NCBI GenBank assembly: GCA_005777235.1
Contig: SXND01000096.1
Coordinates: 1 to 64,000, forward strand
Direction: 5' to 3'
Length of the DNA: 64,000 bases
Source: Pseudomonadota bacterium
Lineage (GTDB): Bacteria > Tectomicrobia > Entotheonellia > Entotheonellales > Entotheonellaceae
Below are positions 4,482-64,000 of this stretch, piece after piece (the stretch's first letter is position 1; every line of letters begins with the position of its first letter). Made by a program: the position numbers and the translations under genes. The notes beneath the pieces were generated by a model, which worked only from the letters and a program-made list of their open reading frames with translations, did not search any database and had not been told where the DNA came from.

Positions 4482-5789
4482 ATGCCCTATCGCTACAAAG
4501 CCATCATGCAAGGCGTCACACACGCCGGATTGAGTCTGGCCCTGGCCTTATGTCTGCCCTGGAGTGGCGTGGCCACCGCGCAACCGGCCTTCAACAGCGG
4601 CTCAGACGGCTCGGAGGGGGCTCTCACGATCACCACCCCCGGCACATATCAATTCTTTGACCCTGCCAGTATGGGCCGTCAGCTCGATCCTGACGGCGAT
4701 GGAGTGTATCACTTTACCACGATCACCATTGCTTCGGGCGTCACGATCGATATGACCAGGTCGCTGCACGGGCCAGTGGTCTGGCTCGCCACCGGGGCCG
4801 TACAAATTAATGGGCTGATTGATCTGAATGGCAGCAATGGGCATCCCGATGGCAACGGGCAATCCAATGCGGTGGTTGCCATGCCAGGGGCAGGGGGGTT
4901 TGCGGGTGGCCCTGCGGCGCGCTTCAACACCCCAGCCCAAGCCGGCGGCGGGCCAGGTGGGGGTCAGGTCCACTCGGTGGTCACTGGCGGCGGCGGTGGC
5001 GCTGGCCATGTCGGTCCCGGCGGCAACGGTGCCGCAGGTGGTGGTGTCCTGGAAGGGAGTGGGCGCGCCTATGGCAATGCCTTTCTCCTACCGTTGCTTG
5101 GTGGCTCCGGCGGCGCCGGAGGCGGGCACAACGGCGGCAGCTTGTATGGTGCCGGGGGCGGTGCCGGAGGTGGAGCGATCCTGATTGCCAGTAGCGACAG
5201 GATTCTGGTGGATGGGACGATCCGTACGAACGGGGGTGGCGGCCATGTCTTATTCAATGGAGGTGCTTCTGGGGGCGGTGGCGGCAGCGGTGGAAGCATT
5301 CGTTTAATCGCACCCATCGTTAGCGGTGGTGGCACACTCTCGGTCAATGGGGGTAGTTCAAACGGTTCTCTTCCTGGCGGCGCTGGCTCCCCAGGTCGTC
5401 TCCGTGTCGAAGCGTTTCAGATTGGCCTTACAGGCCCAACAGGCTCGGCCACGTTCGCGACGCCAGGCGTGGTCTTCTTGCCGTCCAGCCGCCAGCCCGT
5501 GCGAATCGTCAGAATTGGCGATGTGCTGGTCCCAGAGAATCCAACGGGCAGCCTGAGCAACGCCGATGTAGTGCTGGAGGCGAACACCCCCACCACGCTC
5601 GAAATTGCCGCGCGTGGCGTGCCACCCGGCACCGTGGTGCGCATCACCGTGCTGTTCGACTTCACGGAAGCGCTGACGTTCAACTCCACACCGCTGTCCG
5701 GCACGCTGGCGTCTTCCACGGCCACGGCGGTGGTGACCATTCCACACGGCTTCTCGCAATTCCTGGTGGAAGCCAACTGGACCCCGTGA
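4482..5789 (+). CDS. Secreted glycine-rich protein
   Basis: The product is 435 residues. The start is chosen at ATG 4482 behind the GAGAGGAGA ribosome site at 4467-4475. An N-terminal signal peptide (about residues 9-33) ends near 'GVATAQ'. The middle (about 130-310) is extremely Gly-rich with short repeats such as GGGAGGGA. The C-terminal 120 residues form a non-repetitive beta-rich domain ending 'FLVEANWTP'. The function is unknown; a parallel-beta or cell-surface structural role is inference. From about residue 168 to the stop, and for 270 bp beyond, the DNA is duplicated at 7494-8573, where the copy lacks the signal peptide. An inverted-repeat element starts 15 bp after the stop. Confidence 0.8.
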   Translation: MPYRYKAIMQGVTHAGLSLALALCLPWSGVATAQPAFNSGSDGSEGALTITTPGTYQFFDPASMGRQLDPDGDGVYHFTTITIASGVTIDMTRSLHGPVVWLATGAVQINGLIDLNGSNGHPDGNGQSNAVVAMPGAGGFAGGPAARFNTPAQAGGGPGGGQVHSVVTGGGGGAGHVGPGGNGAAGGGVLEGSGRAYGNAFLLPLLGGSGGAGGGHNGGSLYGAGGGAGGGAILIASSDRILVDGTIRTNGGGGHVLFNGGASGGGGGSGGSIRLIAPIVSGGGTLSVNGGSSNGSLPGGAGSPGRLRVEAFQIGLTGPTGSATFATPGVVFLPSSRQPVRIVRIGDVLVPENPTGSLSNADVVLEANTPTTLEIAARGVPPGTVVRITVLFDFTEALTFNSTPLSGTLASSTATAVVTIPHGFSQFLVEANWTP

Positions 5790-58307: not shown

Positions 58308-60569
58308 ATGCCTTTTCTTGCTCATCCCGAGAACACTGCTGGCCAGCCCCACCTGTTGCACGAGCATTTGCGGGGTGTTGGTGCCCTGGCCCGTGGCTTT
58401 GCGGCCGCCGCCAACCCCCAGTTGGCCACCGTGGCGTACCGGGCGGGCCTGTTGCACGACCTGGGGAAATATCGCGAAGAGTTTCAGGAGTACTTGCGTG
58501 CTGAGCGCCCTGGCAGTGTGGATACGCATCACGCGGTGTATGGCGCCGCCCTGGCATTCCAGCGGCGCTGGTTGGGCCTGGCGTTTGCTATCGCAGGCCA
58601 TCACGCCGGCTTGCATGACCTCAGCCAGTTACAAACCCTGGTCCGAGATGAGAAATACCAGGCGACCGCGCGACTCCCGCTCTTGCTCGAACGCTTTACC
58701 GCTGAGGTTGGCCCCCTGGATGCCGGGTTTACGGAGCCGCCGTTTGACCGTTCCCAGGCCCTCTACCTGGAGTTCTACGTGCGCATGCTATTTTCGGCGC
58801 TGGTGGATGCGGACTTCCTGGATACTGAGGCGCACTTTACAGGTTCCCTGCGGCCATCCTGCGTCTTCCAGCCAGACATCCTGTTGCAGCAGCTCCTCGC
58901 CGAGAAAGCGACCAAATCATCCGCCGGTGCCCTCAACGTGGTGCGCCACCGCATTTTTCAGCAATGCCTGGAAGCTGCGGAACAGCCACCCGGCTTTTTT
59001 TCCTTAACCGTGCCAACAGGTGGCGGCAAAACGCTGGCCAGCATGGCCTTCGCGTTGCGACACGCCGAGCGGTACGGCTTGCGACGCATTATCGTCGTCA
59101 TCCCGTACCTGTCCATCATCGAGCAAAATGCCGCGCAGTATCGACGCATATTTGATCTCGACAATACCGGCATTGTGATCGAACACCACTCCGCTGTTGC
59201 TGTGCCCGAAGACCAGGAAGAGCGTACCCGTTCCCCACTCGAATACGCAGCAGACAATTGGGATGCGCCGATTATCGTCACCACCTCGGTGCAGTTTATT
59301 GAATCCCTGTTTGCCAACCGCCCCGCACGCTGCCGGAAGCTGCACAACATCGCGCGAGCCGTCGTCATCTTCGATGAAGTACAAACCCTGCCCACCCACC
59401 TGCTGCATCCTCTCTTGAACATGTTACGCACACTCCAGACGCATTACGGGGTCAGTACGGTCTTTGCGACCGCGACGCAACCAGCCTTTCGCTACCAGGC
59501 CACCACACTGCCTGAAGGATTTCGTGCCCAGAAGGTTATCGAAATCGCCCACGATACCAATCAGACTTTTAGTGCCCTGCGTCGAGTGACCTTCAGACTT
59601 CCGGCACCTGGGGAAACACGGGACTGGCCGACGCTGGCCGCAGAGATGGCGGCGTGTCCGCAAGCGCTCTGTGTGGTGAACGTACGCCAGCACGCCTTCG
59701 CATTGTGGGAAGCATTACGCACGACCCTTACCCTGGAGGAACGTGACACGGTGTTTCATCTGTCATCGGCCATGTGTGCCCAGCATCGCTTTGATCTCCT
59801 GGGGGAGGAGCGCGATCCGGCCGTCGGGACGATCCGCCACCGCCTGCGCACCGGCCAGCCCTGCCGGGTGATCTCCACGCCATTGATTGAAGCCGGGGTA
59901 GACGTGGATTTCCCGCTGGTCTGGCGCGCCGTGGGTCCGCTCGATGCCATCGTGCAGGCGGCTGGACGCTGCAATCGCGAAGGACGTTTACAGGATGCCC
60001 ATGGCGCTCCGGCCCTGGGGGAGGTGCGTATCTTCCGCCCGGTCGAAGCCACGCTACCACCTGGTCTCTACAAGGTAGCGACCGGGATCACGGAGACCTT
60101 GCTGGCCGGCATCGACGTGGAAACGTTGGTGACCGATCCGACGCTCTTGGCGCGCTACTTCAGTCAACTGTACCAGTACGTGCCGACGGATTACGCCAAA
60201 GCCGGCGAAGAGGCCATTCAAACAGACCGTGCCAATCTCCGTTTCCGCGAAGTGGCGCGGAAAGCGCGGGTGATTACCGACGACACACAGCTCGTGATCG
60301 TGCCCTATGGGCAGGGGAAAAAGCATATCGCCGCTCTCCGTGCACGACCGCAGGCATCGGGGCGGGCGCGTTTTACCAAGGCGGATCTCCAACGACTGCA
60401 ACGTTTTATGGTGAATGTGCGCCAACGCGATTTCATGCAACTGCGGGCTCTGGGTCAGCTGCATCCGCTCCTTGCCAATCTCGAACTCTATGTGCTGTCC
60501 AAAGGTTTCTATCATGCTGACCTGGGTCTGCTCATCAATCAACGACCCATGGAGGATTTTCTCCAATGA
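58308..60569 (+). CDS. cas3: CRISPR-associated helicase/nuclease Cas3 (HD fused), type I-C
   Basis: The product is 753 residues. The HD nuclease domain (about 10-200) has 'LLHDLGKY' at 48-55 and 'AGHHAGLHD'. The SF2 helicase has Walker A 'VPTGGGKTLAS' (about 235-245), the DEAH-type box 'VIFDEVQTL', 'FATATQPAF' (motif III) and 'QAAGRCNREG' (motif VI). It unwinds and degrades target DNA recruited by Cascade. GAGGAGAAC precedes ATG 58308. Gene order with cas5c and cas8c identifies subtype I-C. Its stop overlaps the cas5c start by four bases. Confidence 0.96.
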   Translation: MPFLAHPENTAGQPHLLHEHLRGVGALARGFAAAANPQLATVAYRAGLLHDLGKYREEFQEYLRAERPGSVDTHHAVYGAALAFQRRWLGLAFAIAGHHAGLHDLSQLQTLVRDEKYQATARLPLLLERFTAEVGPLDAGFTEPPFDRSQALYLEFYVRMLFSALVDADFLDTEAHFTGSLRPSCVFQPDILLQQLLAEKATKSSAGALNVVRHRIFQQCLEAAEQPPGFFSLTVPTGGGKTLASMAFALRHAERYGLRRIIVVIPYLSIIEQNAAQYRRIFDLDNTGIVIEHHSAVAVPEDQEERTRSPLEYAADNWDAPIIVTTSVQFIESLFANRPARCRKLHNIARAVVIFDEVQTLPTHLLHPLLNMLRTLQTHYGVSTVFATATQPAFRYQATTLPEGFRAQKVIEIAHDTNQTFSALRRVTFRLPAPGETRDWPTLAAEMAACPQALCVVNVRQHAFALWEALRTTLTLEERDTVFHLSSAMCAQHRFDLLGEERDPAVGTIRHRLRTGQPCRVISTPLIEAGVDVDFPLVWRAVGPLDAIVQAAGRCNREGRLQDAHGAPALGEVRIFRPVEATLPPGLYKVATGITETLLAGIDVETLVTDPTLLARYFSQLYQYVPTDYAKAGEEAIQTDRANLRFREVARKARVITDDTQLVIVPYGQGKKHIAALRARPQASGRARFTKADLQRLQRFMVNVRQRDFMQLRALGQLHPLLANLELYVLSKGFYHADLGLLINQRPMEDFLQ

Positions 60570-61408
60570 ATGGTAACCGTGTGACGCTGCGTGTGTGGGG
60601 CGATTTTGCCTGCTTTACGCGCCCTGAGATGAAAGTGGAGCGTGTCAGTTATCCGGTGATGACCCCTTCTGCCGCACGCGGCATTCTCGAAGCGATCTTC
60701 TGGGAACCGCAGATGTATTACCTGATTGACACCATCCACATCATCAAACGCGGGCGCTGGTTGTCGTTCCGCCGTAACGAAGTGACGAACGTCATCAGCC
60801 TGAATAGCGCCAAAACGTGGATGCAAGCACCAGAGAAAGTCACGCCGATCCGCGCCGGGGGCGGTGCCGATGACGGCACGCAACGTAATATGCTGGCGCT
60901 GGAGGATGTCGAATACCTGATTACCGCCGAAGTGCGCCTGACCGACATCGGCACGCGCCACAACCTGCTGCAAAAATATCTCGACGAGATCGCCCGACGC
61001 GCCCAGAGTGGCAAGTGCTATCACCGCCCGGCGCTCGGGGTACGGGAATGTGCCGCCGATTTCGAGTGGGTAGAGAACCCGCAGGCGATGCTCGCACACC
61101 GTGCGGCGGCACTGGGCGACGCCTGGGAGGACTACACAGAAGACCTGGGTCTCATGTTGTATGACGTGTTCGACGTGCACGAACGTGCCGCCGGGTTCCG
61201 CTGGTTCACATCAGCGGAGCTGGATGCCTTGCCACCGCCGCGCCAAGGAGGCCGCTCCAGACGCGCTGCTGCACCGGCCCCGCCGCGCTACGAGGGCCGA
61301 CTGGTTGCGCCAGCAGCGACGTTTTTTCACGCACATGTCCAGGCATCAGCCATGGACTGCCATCCTGAGCGCGTGCGCTTTGTCCAACAGGCCCAATCTC
61401 ATCCGTAA
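60566..61408 (+). CDS. cas5c: Cas5c (Cas5d) crRNA-processing endoribonuclease
   Basis: The product is 280 residues. The N-terminus 'VTLRVWGDFACFTRPEMKVERVSY' (partial) and 'TPSAARGILEAIFW' is diagnostic of the Cas5d/Cas5c group. In type I-C this protein replaces Cas6, cutting pre-crRNA and staying bound to the 5' handle. 'FRRNEV' and a His/Lys-rich centre are present. A proline/arginine-rich C-terminal insert (about 235-255) is unusual for the group. It is translationally coupled to cas3 (ATGA). Confidence 0.95.
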   Translation: MNGNRVTLRVWGDFACFTRPEMKVERVSYPVMTPSAARGILEAIFWEPQMYYLIDTIHIIKRGRWLSFRRNEVTNVISLNSAKTWMQAPEKVTPIRAGGGADDGTQRNMLALEDVEYLITAEVRLTDIGTRHNLLQKYLDEIARRAQSGKCYHRPALGVRECAADFEWVENPQAMLAHRAAALGDAWEDYTEDLGLMLYDVFDVHERAAGFRWFTSAELDALPPPRQGGRSRRAAAPAPPRYEGRLVAPAATFFHAHVQASAMDCHPERVRFVQQAQSHP

Positions 61409-61423
61409 ACAGGAGGTGCATGG

Positions 61424-63334
61424 ATGTTACTACGTCATCTCTACGACCTGGCCACGACCCGTCATCTGCTCGATGACCTGGCATTTGTCCCGAAAACCAT
61501 TCGCTGGGTTATTCCATTAGATGCGATGGGGCATCTCGTGGGCTCAGGCCCCATGGAAACCCTGGGCGACGGCACGAGAGGGAAAACATTTGACGCCCCG
61601 CAGACCAGCCGCAACAAAAACGCCGGAGGGGTAGCGGAATTCCTGGCGGATGGGATCACCGCGCTTTTCGCCCTGGACCCCGACCCTGAAAAAGACACCA
61701 ACAATGCCCGCAAGCGGCAGGAGCGCGACGCCAATAATGTGGCCAAGTACACAGATTTCTGGCAACAAATGCAGGACGCTGACGAGGTCACCGCGCATCC
61801 GGCTTTCCAGGCCATGCTGCAATTCCATGCCGCTGTTGGCCAGGCCCCGTCCTTTCTGCGCTGGGGCACCAGCGCCACAGGCCCCGCTGACCACAAAGCG
61901 GCATGGTGGCTCACCACTGCCGCCGGACAAGAGGTGAAGCTCGGTCCGGACAACTGGACATTTGACGTCGAGGGGACGCTCCTGCTGTCTGACGAACAAC
62001 TCCTGCGTCCGTACTGGCGTAGTGTCTATCAACGCGAGATGCGTGAAAAAAACACGGCTGCCACACGTGGTCTGTGCCTGATCACGGGTGCCGAAAATGT
62101 GCCCATTGCTGCCACGCATGTCCCCAAAATCAAAGGCGTTCCCAGAGCACAGCCCACCGGCGCCGCCCTGGTATCCTTTGATAAGCCGGCCTTCACCTCG
62201 TACGGCTGTGACCAGAGTTATAATGCCCCGGCGTCCATTGAAGCTACGACCGCCTATTGTGTGGCCCTGAACTGGCTCTTGGGCCAGAAACAGCACACGC
62301 TGCGTATTGGTCCGACGGCGGTGTGTTTCTGGGCTCGCGATGCGGAAGAGAGCACAGACTGGATTGCCGATTTGCTGGACCGTCCGCATCCCGAACACGT
62401 TCGGGAGTTTTTAACGGCGCCGTGGGGCGGAACGCCACGCGCGCTGCATCAACATGACCAGTTCTACAGCGTGACCCTGGCGGGGAATGCCGGGCGCCTC
62501 GTCGTGCGACACTGGATGCAGACGACCGTCGCCGCAGCGCGGGCACACCTGAGCCGCTGGTTTGACGATTTACGGATGGCCCCCTACGGCCCGCCGGCTA
62601 CGTCGCCGTCCAGATCACAGCGCAGCGCGACAGCGAAAGAAGCGCTACAGCCTCTGGCGCTGTACAGCCTGGCGATGACCACGGTGCGCGATCAGAAAGA
62701 TTTGCAACCAGAAACGCTCACGCAACTGTACCGTGCGGCGCTTGAAGGTACCGCGCCCTCGCTGGCCTTGCTCAAACCCATCCTCAGCCGCTTGCAAGTG
62801 GAGCTGGCACGCCATGGGCGTAATGCCCTGTACCATATATCTCGTTTCGCGCTGCTGCGCCTGCTGCTGAACCGCCATCGTCAGGAAGGGACACCCATGA
62901 TCGAACCCCAGGTATTTGAGACCAATGACCCGGCCTACAACTGCGGGCGGCTACTGGCCGTGCTGGCCGAAGCGCAGCAGAAGGCCCATGACTACAAGCT
63001 GGAAGGAGCTGGCGTGGCGGAACGCTACTTTGGCACTGCCTGTGCGGCGCCGGCGTCAGTGCTCCCGCTGCTCCTGCGGCTCAATCGCCATCATTTGAAT
63101 AGCATCAGGAAATCGGCGCGCTACCAGGGCCATGAACGGTTTCTCGAAGAGGCCATGCAGCACATCCTGGCGCTGTTTCGGCCTGCCGAGGACCAGCAAG
63201 CGCCCGTCTTTCCCAGAGTGCTGAACCTGCAGGCCCAGGGGCGTTTCGCGCTCGGCTTCTATCAGCAGCAGGCCGCTGATGACGCCGCACGCCGCGCACA
63301 CACGAAGGCGGGTGATACACCTGACGTAGCTTGA
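61424..63334 (+). CDS. cas8c: Cas8c (Csd1), type I-C Cascade large subunit
   Basis: The product is 636 residues from ATG 61424 behind CAGGAGGTG. The family pattern 'LLRHLYDLATT', 'KNAGGVAEFLADG', 'LITGAENVPIAATHVPKIKGV' (partly) and 'SFDKPAFTSYG' is clear along the full length. Cas8c recognises the PAM and helps open target DNA. The C-terminal 145 codons also carry a separate ribosome site and ATG (62897), see the next entry. It lies 15 bp after cas5c. Confidence 0.95.
   Translation: MLLRHLYDLATTRHLLDDLAFVPKTIRWVIPLDAMGHLVGSGPMETLGDGTRGKTFDAPQTSRNKNAGGVAEFLADGITALFALDPDPEKDTNNARKRQERDANNVAKYTDFWQQMQDADEVTAHPAFQAMLQFHAAVGQAPSFLRWGTSATGPADHKAAWWLTTAAGQEVKLGPDNWTFDVEGTLLLSDEQLLRPYWRSVYQREMREKNTAATRGLCLITGAENVPIAATHVPKIKGVPRAQPTGAALVSFDKPAFTSYGCDQSYNAPASIEATTAYCVALNWLLGQKQHTLRIGPTAVCFWARDAEESTDWIADLLDRPHPEHVREFLTAPWGGTPRALHQHDQFYSVTLAGNAGRLVVRHWMQTTVAAARAHLSRWFDDLRMAPYGPPATSPSRSQRSATAKEALQPLALYSLAMTTVRDQKDLQPETLTQLYRAALEGTAPSLALLKPILSRLQVELARHGRNALYHISRFALLRLLLNRHRQEGTPMIEPQVFETNDPAYNCGRLLAVLAEAQQKAHDYKLEGAGVAERYFGTACAAPASVLPLLLRLNRHHLNSIRKSARYQGHERFLEEAMQHILALFRPAEDQQAPVFPRVLNLQAQGRFALGFYQQQAADDAARRAHTKAGDTPDVA
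62897..63334 (+). CDS. cas11c: Cas11c small subunit from an internal start within cas8c
   Basis: Within the cas8c frame, GGAAGGG (62884-62890) is followed after six bases by ATG 62897. It opens a 145-residue product 'MIEPQVFETNDPAYNCG' to the cas8c stop. In studied type I-C systems the Cas11 small subunits come from such internal initiation and line the belly of Cascade (established knowledge). The length, helical character and position near the last quarter of cas8c all fit. The strong ribosome site inside a coding frame is directly visible; translation itself is inferred. Confidence 0.75.
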   Translation: MIEPQVFETNDPAYNCGRLLAVLAEAQQKAHDYKLEGAGVAERYFGTACAAPASVLPLLLRLNRHHLNSIRKSARYQGHERFLEEAMQHILALFRPAEDQQAPVFPRVLNLQAQGRFALGFYQQQAADDAARRAHTKAGDTPDVA

Positions 63335-63392
63335 GCGACGGGCCTTCCACGGTATCGCCCTCTTTAACAGGCAGGGCGGGAATTGCAACACC

Positions 63393-63428
63393 AACGGGAA
63401 CCCCAACGGCGATTCCGATGCGGGATGA
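63393..63428 (+). pseudogene. Short remnant of a duplicated cas7c 5' end
   Basis: In a frame of its own, these bases encode NGNPNGDSDAG and then TGA. The true cas7c starts 35 bp further and encodes NGNPNGDPDAG near its N-terminus. The differences are mostly at third codon positions (GGG/GGC, CCC/CCG, GAT/GAC twice). A chance match is unlikely; it is too short to be functional. Confidence 0.5.
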
Positions 63429-63462
63429 AACACAATCGCTTCTTACACTACGGGAGACTGAC

Positions 63463-64000
63463 ATGGCAACAGTATTGACTAACCGACACGATTTCCTACT
63501 CCTGTTTGATGTGGTGAACGGCAACCCGAACGGCGACCCCGACGCGGGTAACATGCCGCGCATTGACCCGAACACCAACCGCGGCCTGGTGTCCGACGTC
63601 TGCCTCAAACGCAAAGTCAGGAACTTTGTCGCAGAATTCGCGCCGCCGCGCCAGGCAGACGACAACGGCTACGACATCTTTATCAAGAGTGGCCCGGCCC
63701 TGGAACGCACGATCAACCGGGCCGTGGAGGGGAATAACCGCAGCGCCGAAGCCGCCGTGCAATGGCTCTGCCGCGAGTTTTATGACATCCGCGCCTTTGG
63801 TGGAGTGCTCTCCGTCGGCAATGAAGTCATGAAAGGCTCTGCTTACGGACAACTGCGCGGCCCGGTGCAATTCACCTTCGCCCAATCGTTCGATGCTATC
63901 ACACCGCTCGAAATCTCCATCACGCGCTGTGTGGCCACCACCATTGCCGACGAAGCGAAAGAGCGCACCATGGGCAACAAGCATATCGTGCCCTATGCCC
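63463..64000 (+). CDS. cas7c: Cas7c (Csd2), type I-C Cascade backbone, 3' end outside window
   Basis: The frame opens at ATG 63463 (GGGAG at 63452-63456) and stays open to the window edge, 179 codons. The N-terminus 'FLLLFDVVNGNPNGDPDAGN' is the Csd2 hallmark, followed by 'MPRIDPNTNRGLVSDVCLKRKV' (in part), 'YDIRAFGGVLS' and 'GQLRGPVQFTFAQSFD'. The subunit wraps the crRNA guide along the complex. The rest of the gene, and the usual cas4-cas1-cas2 and array, would lie to the right. Confidence 0.95.
   Translation, partial: MATVLTNRHDFLLLFDVVNGNPNGDPDAGNMPRIDPNTNRGLVSDVCLKRKVRNFVAEFAPPRQADDNGYDIFIKSGPALERTINRAVEGNNRSAEAAVQWLCREFYDIRAFGGVLSVGNEVMKGSAYGQLRGPVQFTFAQSFDAITPLEISITRCVATTIADEAKERTMGNKHIVPYA

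Follow-up and report, generated by a model that had tools for sequence, protein, structure and literature searches.

The window (the whole stretch of 64,000 nucleotides analysed) ends within a type I-C CRISPR-Cas operon, in which cas3, cas5c, cas8c, a gap of 128 nt, and cas7c follow one another (Table 1). The in-window part of cas7c, which begins with the ATG at 63463, scored 176.1 bits against TIGR02589, slightly below the curated cut-off of 182.25, and the gene continues past the window to contig position 64374. Farther downstream lie a 100-aa ORF, cas4, cas1, an ORF between cas1 and the array that we take by its position to be cas2 (end at L010:8708, L010 being the operon locus), and the CRISPR array. 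The 100-aa ORF (L010:6384-6686), located between cas7c and cas4, had no Pfam or NCBIfam match at an E limit of 1, and tblastn against the other I-C loci of an interim set gave none either; DUF4258, a name suggested by resemblance, was dropped because neither Pfam nor NCBIfam gave a match. The genome comprises 6.03 Mb (6,026,573 bases) in 284 contigs, with an estimated contamination of 6.7%, and carries a second, divergent I-C operon on another contig (C124), where a lone repeat after cas7c (L011:3708-3744) reaches an apparently truncated cas4. A cas8c query against the genome contigs returned no relatives, whereas the cas7c alignment query did, and a phylum-level search of five genomes found no close relative of the operon.

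Table 1. Features of the type I-C operon at the end of the window and repeat-like sequences in and beyond it
Feature	Position	Strand	Basis or remark
cas3	58308-60569	+	Cas3 HD and helicase models
cas5c	60566-61408	+	TIGR01876, E 1.6e-31
cas8c/csd1	61424-63334	+	TIGR01863, E 2.2e-88
psiR1, degenerate solitary type I-C CRISPR repeat, 38 nt	63352-63389	+	Covariance model, alignment, Rfam
Spacer-like cas7c-derived stretch, 36 nt, in frame TNGNPNGDSDAG	63390-63425	+	Alignment to cas7c genes
Remainder of the cas8c-cas7c gap	63426-63462	+	Sequence; holds the ribosome-binding-like GGGAG of cas7c at 63452-63456
cas7c/csd2, 5' part	63463-64000	+	TIGR02589, E 9.5e-52 for the in-window part
Resident cas7c site aligning to the spacer, 27/36	63514-63549	+	Preceding triplet GTG, not the I-C PAM TTC
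Ectopic I-C repeat, beyond the window	L010:6668-6705 (contig 64667-64704)	sense	Model E 5.7e-5
Ectopic I-C repeat, beyond the window	L010:8762-8798 (contig 66761-66797)	sense	Model E 5.4e-5

The initial annotation had pointed to an NGNPNGDSDAG motif in the gap, out of frame with both neighbors, and this was confirmed: positions 63393-63425 encode the motif in a frame that differs from those of cas8c and cas7c, and a TGA codon at 63426-63428 follows directly. The distance of 35 bp to the cas7c start given there is close to the actual one, as the ATG lies 37 nt from 63425 and 34 nt from 63428, where the feature had been taken to end. Compared with 63517-63549 of the resident cas7c, 27 of the 33 positions are identical and five of the six differences fall at third codon positions, and eight clade members gave 4-6 third-position, one first-position, and no second-position differences; the differences are mostly third-position ones, in line with the synonymous sites noted there. 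The alignment score of 39 between the gap and its own cas7c was reached by none of 5000 dinucleotide shuffles, and the likeness is therefore not due to chance. A degenerate codon pattern for NGNPNGDxDAG, allowing up to two mismatches, matched three times in the 6,026,573 bases of the genome, namely, at this stretch, in the resident cas7c, and in the cas7c of the second I-C operon (one mismatch); the reversed pattern, used as a control, matched nowhere in the same genome. With the gap as query, a BLASTN search of 72,556 plasmid records (E limit 10) returned nine records, none below 1e-5. The four lowest E-values (0.03 once and 0.3 three times) all belonged to cas7c genes, which cover gap positions 55-91 or 59-90, although with a best E of 0.03 these matches are weak evidence alone. 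The gap had only two 19-nt matches to phage sequences (E 5), and no low-complexity explanation for the stretch was seen. A mobile element or repeat family was rejected, the other genome matches of the gap being no better than E 0.36.

The likeness to cas7c covers approximately 36 nt (63390-63425) and ends sharply. Local alignments to the eight closest cas7c genes (L045-L052, 57-72% protein identity) begin at 63389 or 63390 and stop at 63424, and base 63425 completes the last codon. The stretch is identical to these eight clade genes at 29-31 of 36 positions and to the resident cas7c at 27, and the best match, at 32 of 36, is a Halomonas gene (L055); none of the matches is exact. The resident gene ranks 52nd among 118 cas7c motifs, ties included, so that 51 others are at least as close. 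The eight best foreign motifs share 30-32 of 36 positions and all of the first eight bases, compared with five of these eight in the resident. Virus-borne I-C cas7c genes (19 loci) were no better, reaching 30 of 36. The clade genes read T-NGNPNGDPDAG, the stretch reads T-NGNPNGDSDAG, and the resident reads V-NGNP. These comparisons support an origin of the stretch in the cas7c coding sequence of a lineage other than that of the resident gene. Because the resident ranks only 52nd and other genes are closer, the source was probably another cas7c lineage, that is, a related I-C operon rather than the cas7c present today.

The last base of a repeat-like sequence, psiR1, directly precedes the first base of this stretch. 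The repeat of the operon's own array, GTTCGCCCCGCTGAAGAGGCGGGGCGTGGATTGAAAC (37 nt), aligned without gaps to 63355-63389 with 25 of 35 positions identical. psiR1 was first spotted by eye and the statistical tests came after; its alignment score was reached by none of 10,000 shuffles of the gap and by one of 5000 shuffled repeats, and it was the best of 1996 overlapping tiles of the window (score 34; best elsewhere, 28). A covariance model built from 13 I-C repeats of other genomes, none of them from the source genome, was used with cmsearch; its best match in the window was 63352-63389, at full length, with 17.4 bits and an E-value of 0.0059 for the 64 kb, and the next match scored 11.1 bits. 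The Rfam family CRISPR-DR9 (RF01322) aligned over positions 1-37 of 37 at the same coordinates with 18.4 bits (E 1.9), and the array repeats matched this family with 25.7-28.6 bits, all below the gathering score of 45; the scores of psiR1 are thus modest. The repeats of several other I-C genomes start with GTATCGCCC or GCATCGCCC, and psiR1 starts with GTATCGCCC at 63352. Its hairpin arms are CGCCCT (63356-63361) and AGGGCG (63373-63378), followed by an 11-nt handle-like 3' tail, GGAATTGCAAC (63379-63389), which gives a geometry of 4+6+11+6+11 nt, compared with 4+9+4+9+11 in the model. The array repeat forms eight stem pairs; psiR1 retains five of them as they are, has T-A in place of C-G in one, has a T-G wobble in another, and no longer forms one. 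The hairpin is thus mostly preserved. The RNA folds into a hairpin with a z-score of -2.06, and seven of 200 shuffles were as good.

We also surveyed the 330 nt before the cas7c motif in 104 I-C loci, a few of which are duplicates. The psiR1 locus had the top repeat score, 34, the next locus reached 30, as did the maximum of the opposite-strand control, and an equally strong repeat just before cas7c was found in none of the other loci. After the spacer, TGAAAC or the stretch ending ATGGCAAC suggested a second repeat by eye, but neither was significant: no part of 63426-63462 was among the ten best repeat alignments, and the model match at 63411-63431 had only 5.8 bits (E 4.4). The gap accordingly holds a single repeat, not the two or more near-identical repeats of a canonical I-C array, and no promoter-like site was found.

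Model searching of the 8990 bases of the operon locus gave two further ectopic repeats in sense orientation (Table 1). The repeat at 64667-64704, whose end falls at the cas4 ATG, overlaps the stop codon of the ORF before it, and one of the repeat's stem pairs is changed on both sides (C-G to G-C); that at 66761-66797 stands alone between the array and the presumed cas2. Cas5c would be the repeat-processing enzyme here, and the ectopic repeats might be Cas5c cutting sites that divide the cas mRNA into cas3-cas5c-cas8c, cas7c, cas4-cas1 with the following ORF, and the array, the spacer being incidental. In favor of this, all three repeats are in sense orientation and are placed at a gene border or across one, but none of the other loci in the 104-locus set has an equally strong repeat before cas7c, and we regard such a division as unlikely. 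Still less probable, in our estimate, is a combined arrangement in which Cas5c would cut the mRNA that encodes it at the ectopic repeats on the gene borders, giving separate effector, Cas7, and adaptation pieces, with one cut freeing a cas7c-bearing guide. If true, a single element before the gene for the repeated backbone subunit of Cascade would serve both in RNA processing and as a guide directed at self or at rivals.

The gap thus contains a repeat-like sequence with a paired hairpin and, abutting it, a spacer-length stretch derived from cas7c; we call the stretch spacer-length because the array spacers of this operon are 32-37 nt long, as derived from start-to-start spacings, and it is 36 nt long. 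We consider it probable that 63352-63425 is a minimal degenerate CRISPR unit with a foreign-cas7c spacer, now a PAM-less relic whose guide function is weak or lost. One degenerate repeat and one spacer, a 36-bp piece captured from the cas7c of a related I-C operon, would have become lodged between cas8c and cas7c. The unit would be transcribed within the cas mRNA, the 3' foot of its hairpin may be a site that Cas5c can cut, and the resulting RNA could be, or could have been, a crRNA-like guide bearing cas7c sequence; at present, the unit would simply be tolerated as a remnant of spacer capture. A TTC PAM has been reported for type I-C in Xanthomonas oryzae (PMC8406640). None of the 118 cas7c motifs, the resident included, has TTC before the site matching the spacer (the triplets are GTN, TGC/TGT, or ATC), and strong DNA targeting is therefore not expected; a cas7c-derived spacer without a PAM could accordingly survive without self-attack. 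The unit is either a fossil or a guide that has no known target; it may represent a guide RNA that is minor or no longer in use. The same unit occurred in no other locus examined, and it may stem from an assembly error, since the assembly has 284 contigs and the estimated contamination noted above. At well-conserved first and second codon positions, the stretch differs at one of 21, whereas psiR1 differs from the array repeat at 10 of 35 (Fisher P 0.04). A single common age for repeat and spacer does not fit this difference in drift well; the spacer may be the younger of the two, or psiR1 may descend from a different repeat variant.

The initial annotation had explained the stretch by duplication and loss of cas7c or by recombination between I-C operons. 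A foreign cas7c coding origin is retained from that proposal, since the stretch derives from coding sequence other than that of the resident allele, but the N-terminus of a lost tandem cas7c is not. The likeness does not extend beyond one conserved motif of approximately 36 nt, although the neighboring residues are also conserved in cas7c; a start codon is lacking, as is an HDFLLLFEV-like stretch upstream, and the degenerate CRISPR repeat adjoins it instead. In the 55 nt upstream, likeness to cas7c was no greater than in shuffles, and it would be surprising for a decayed N-terminus to retain one motif yet lose its conserved neighbors. A second motif, as tandem cas7c copies in related operons would give, was found in none of the other 110 motif-bearing loci. 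A remnant of a tandem or recombined N-terminus is accordingly improbable in our judgment. Two related candidates were rejected. HGIALFN as a worn HDFLLLFE was suggestive by eye but not significant, and for a tandem duplication of the gap, alignment of the 55 nt with the region before the real motif was equaled or exceeded by 336 of 1000 shuffles for the own gene and by 467-999 of 1000 for the eight clade genes. Some genomes have more than one cas7c match; from their coordinates, these appear to be fragments of a match to a single gene or to sit on separate contigs. A replication or repair error could also have inserted a short cas7c template copy beside a repeat-like sequence of chance or independent origin. 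This would yield a short stretch with sharp edges and would suit a repeat that looks older than the spacer, but two independent events would have had to meet at one base and produce a spacer length by accident, which makes it very unlikely.

Two functional readings of such a unit were weighed against targeting tests. CreA guides studied in type I-B are reported to depend on a TTC PAM together with base pairing at nt 1-5 and 7-11 (PMC8501985), and we scored the seed run after TTC, with position 6 free, for 18 ectopic units. In the three units of the present locus, the run was 4 and the null counts were 102-125 of 200, none above chance; for the psiR1 spacer and targets near the operon, the run was 4 and the null count 125 of 200. 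The resident cas7c target carries GTG where the TTC PAM would lie and is mismatched to the spacer at positions 1-3 and 9. In anatomy, with one degenerate repeat outside the array, the unit resembles CreR and CreA guides, yet it differs from them in targeting because no TTC-plus-seed target was found, whether in a cas or a toxin promoter. One reading, compatible with the solitary repeat-spacer unit, is a CreR-like autorepressor, in which a crRNA-like RNA would lead Cascade to the cas7c start and damp cas7c and the downstream genes. The degenerate solitary repeat inside a cas operon, the spacer resembling a gene of the same operon 124 bp downstream, and the existence of units with TTC and long seed runs in other I-C loci (see below) agree with it; the PAM and seed of the resident target, the chance-level runs, and the 51 motifs that match the spacer at least as well as the resident speak against it, and we regard it as doubtful. 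In the other functional reading of the unit, the spacer might be an anti-cas spacer, a memory that keeps related I-C operons out but leaves the resident gene alone. The closer match of the eight best foreign motifs, the first eight bases included, would fit such a role, and spacers of this kind are known from orphan I-F arrays (Almendros 2016, as cited in PMC8616872). Against it stand the lack of TTC before all 118 cas7c motifs and the finding that viral contigs contained no exact match to the degenerate pattern of the stretch; we give this possibility little weight.

Ectopic degenerate repeats are a recently recognized layer of CRISPR self-control. CreR is described as a crRNA-like cas autorepressor of type I and V-A loci (Liu et al. 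2023, doi 10.1016/j.chom.2023.08.005, as described in the review PMC12737573), and the psiR1 unit shares with it a degenerate repeat and a spacer-like sequence in a type I cas locus to which that sequence is related. As described there, CreR binds a cas promoter, whereas the psiR1 spacer resembles cas7c coding DNA over its whole length, lacks a PAM, and has seed mismatches in the resident copy. The degenerate repeats of CreA in CreTA modules are said to derive from minimal CRISPRs (PMC8501985, PMC9458426). They are likewise ectopic, one or two in number, and among or beside cas genes in these accounts; here, no toxin target with TTC and seed 1-5/7-11 was found and the spacer is gene-derived. 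The anti-cas spacers of orphan I-F arrays reported in PMC8616872 match cas genes of the cognate subtype, and the psiR1 spacer clearly resembles foreign cas7c genes, at best at 32 of 36 positions. Unlike them, psiR1 is a single degenerate repeat inside a cas operon and has no PAM at the matching site. Among the literature matches listed, none described a repeat-spacer unit that lies between cas8c and cas7c and whose spacer derives from cas7c. If true, the unit is unusual in that its spacer comes from the coding sequence of an effector gene and does not pair with a promoter, and an apparent "ghost gene" in a cas gap can be an overlooked repeat-spacer unit.

The TTC-plus-seed test was passed by five of the 18 units (L085, L102, L117, L074, and L088), with runs of 7-11 nt and null counts of 0-3 of 200; the runs were 10-11 nt in the first four, and L088 was weaker at 7 nt. 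The survey thus yields candidate CreR-like units in five type I-C loci, at L085:427, L102:504, L117:418, L074 (2.8 kb before the cas7c motif), and L088 (minus strand, 266). These candidates sit in the 5' part of their loci, with the seed matches 101-323 nt away. They may overlap with the structured-RNA candidates reported for I-C operons in PMC9067536, one of which is placed approximately 300 bases upstream of cas3.

Other I-C loci showed further features around cas7c. In Singulisphaera (L052), the long cas8c-cas7c gap contains an inverted repeat around GTTCCCACGCT, by eye not a CRISPR repeat. Small series of degenerate repeat-like matches (E 0.008-1.2, some weak) come right after cas7c at L083:3980-4148 and L089:4078-4241. 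In two close relatives, toxin-antitoxin-like genes lie between cas7c and cas4: nucleotidyltransferase and HEPN genes at L046:3951-4668, and YgiT/MqsA-like and ParE genes at positions 4018-5046 of L045, where an ectopic repeat (4534-4570, 25.3 bits) directly precedes a small ORF upstream of ParE.
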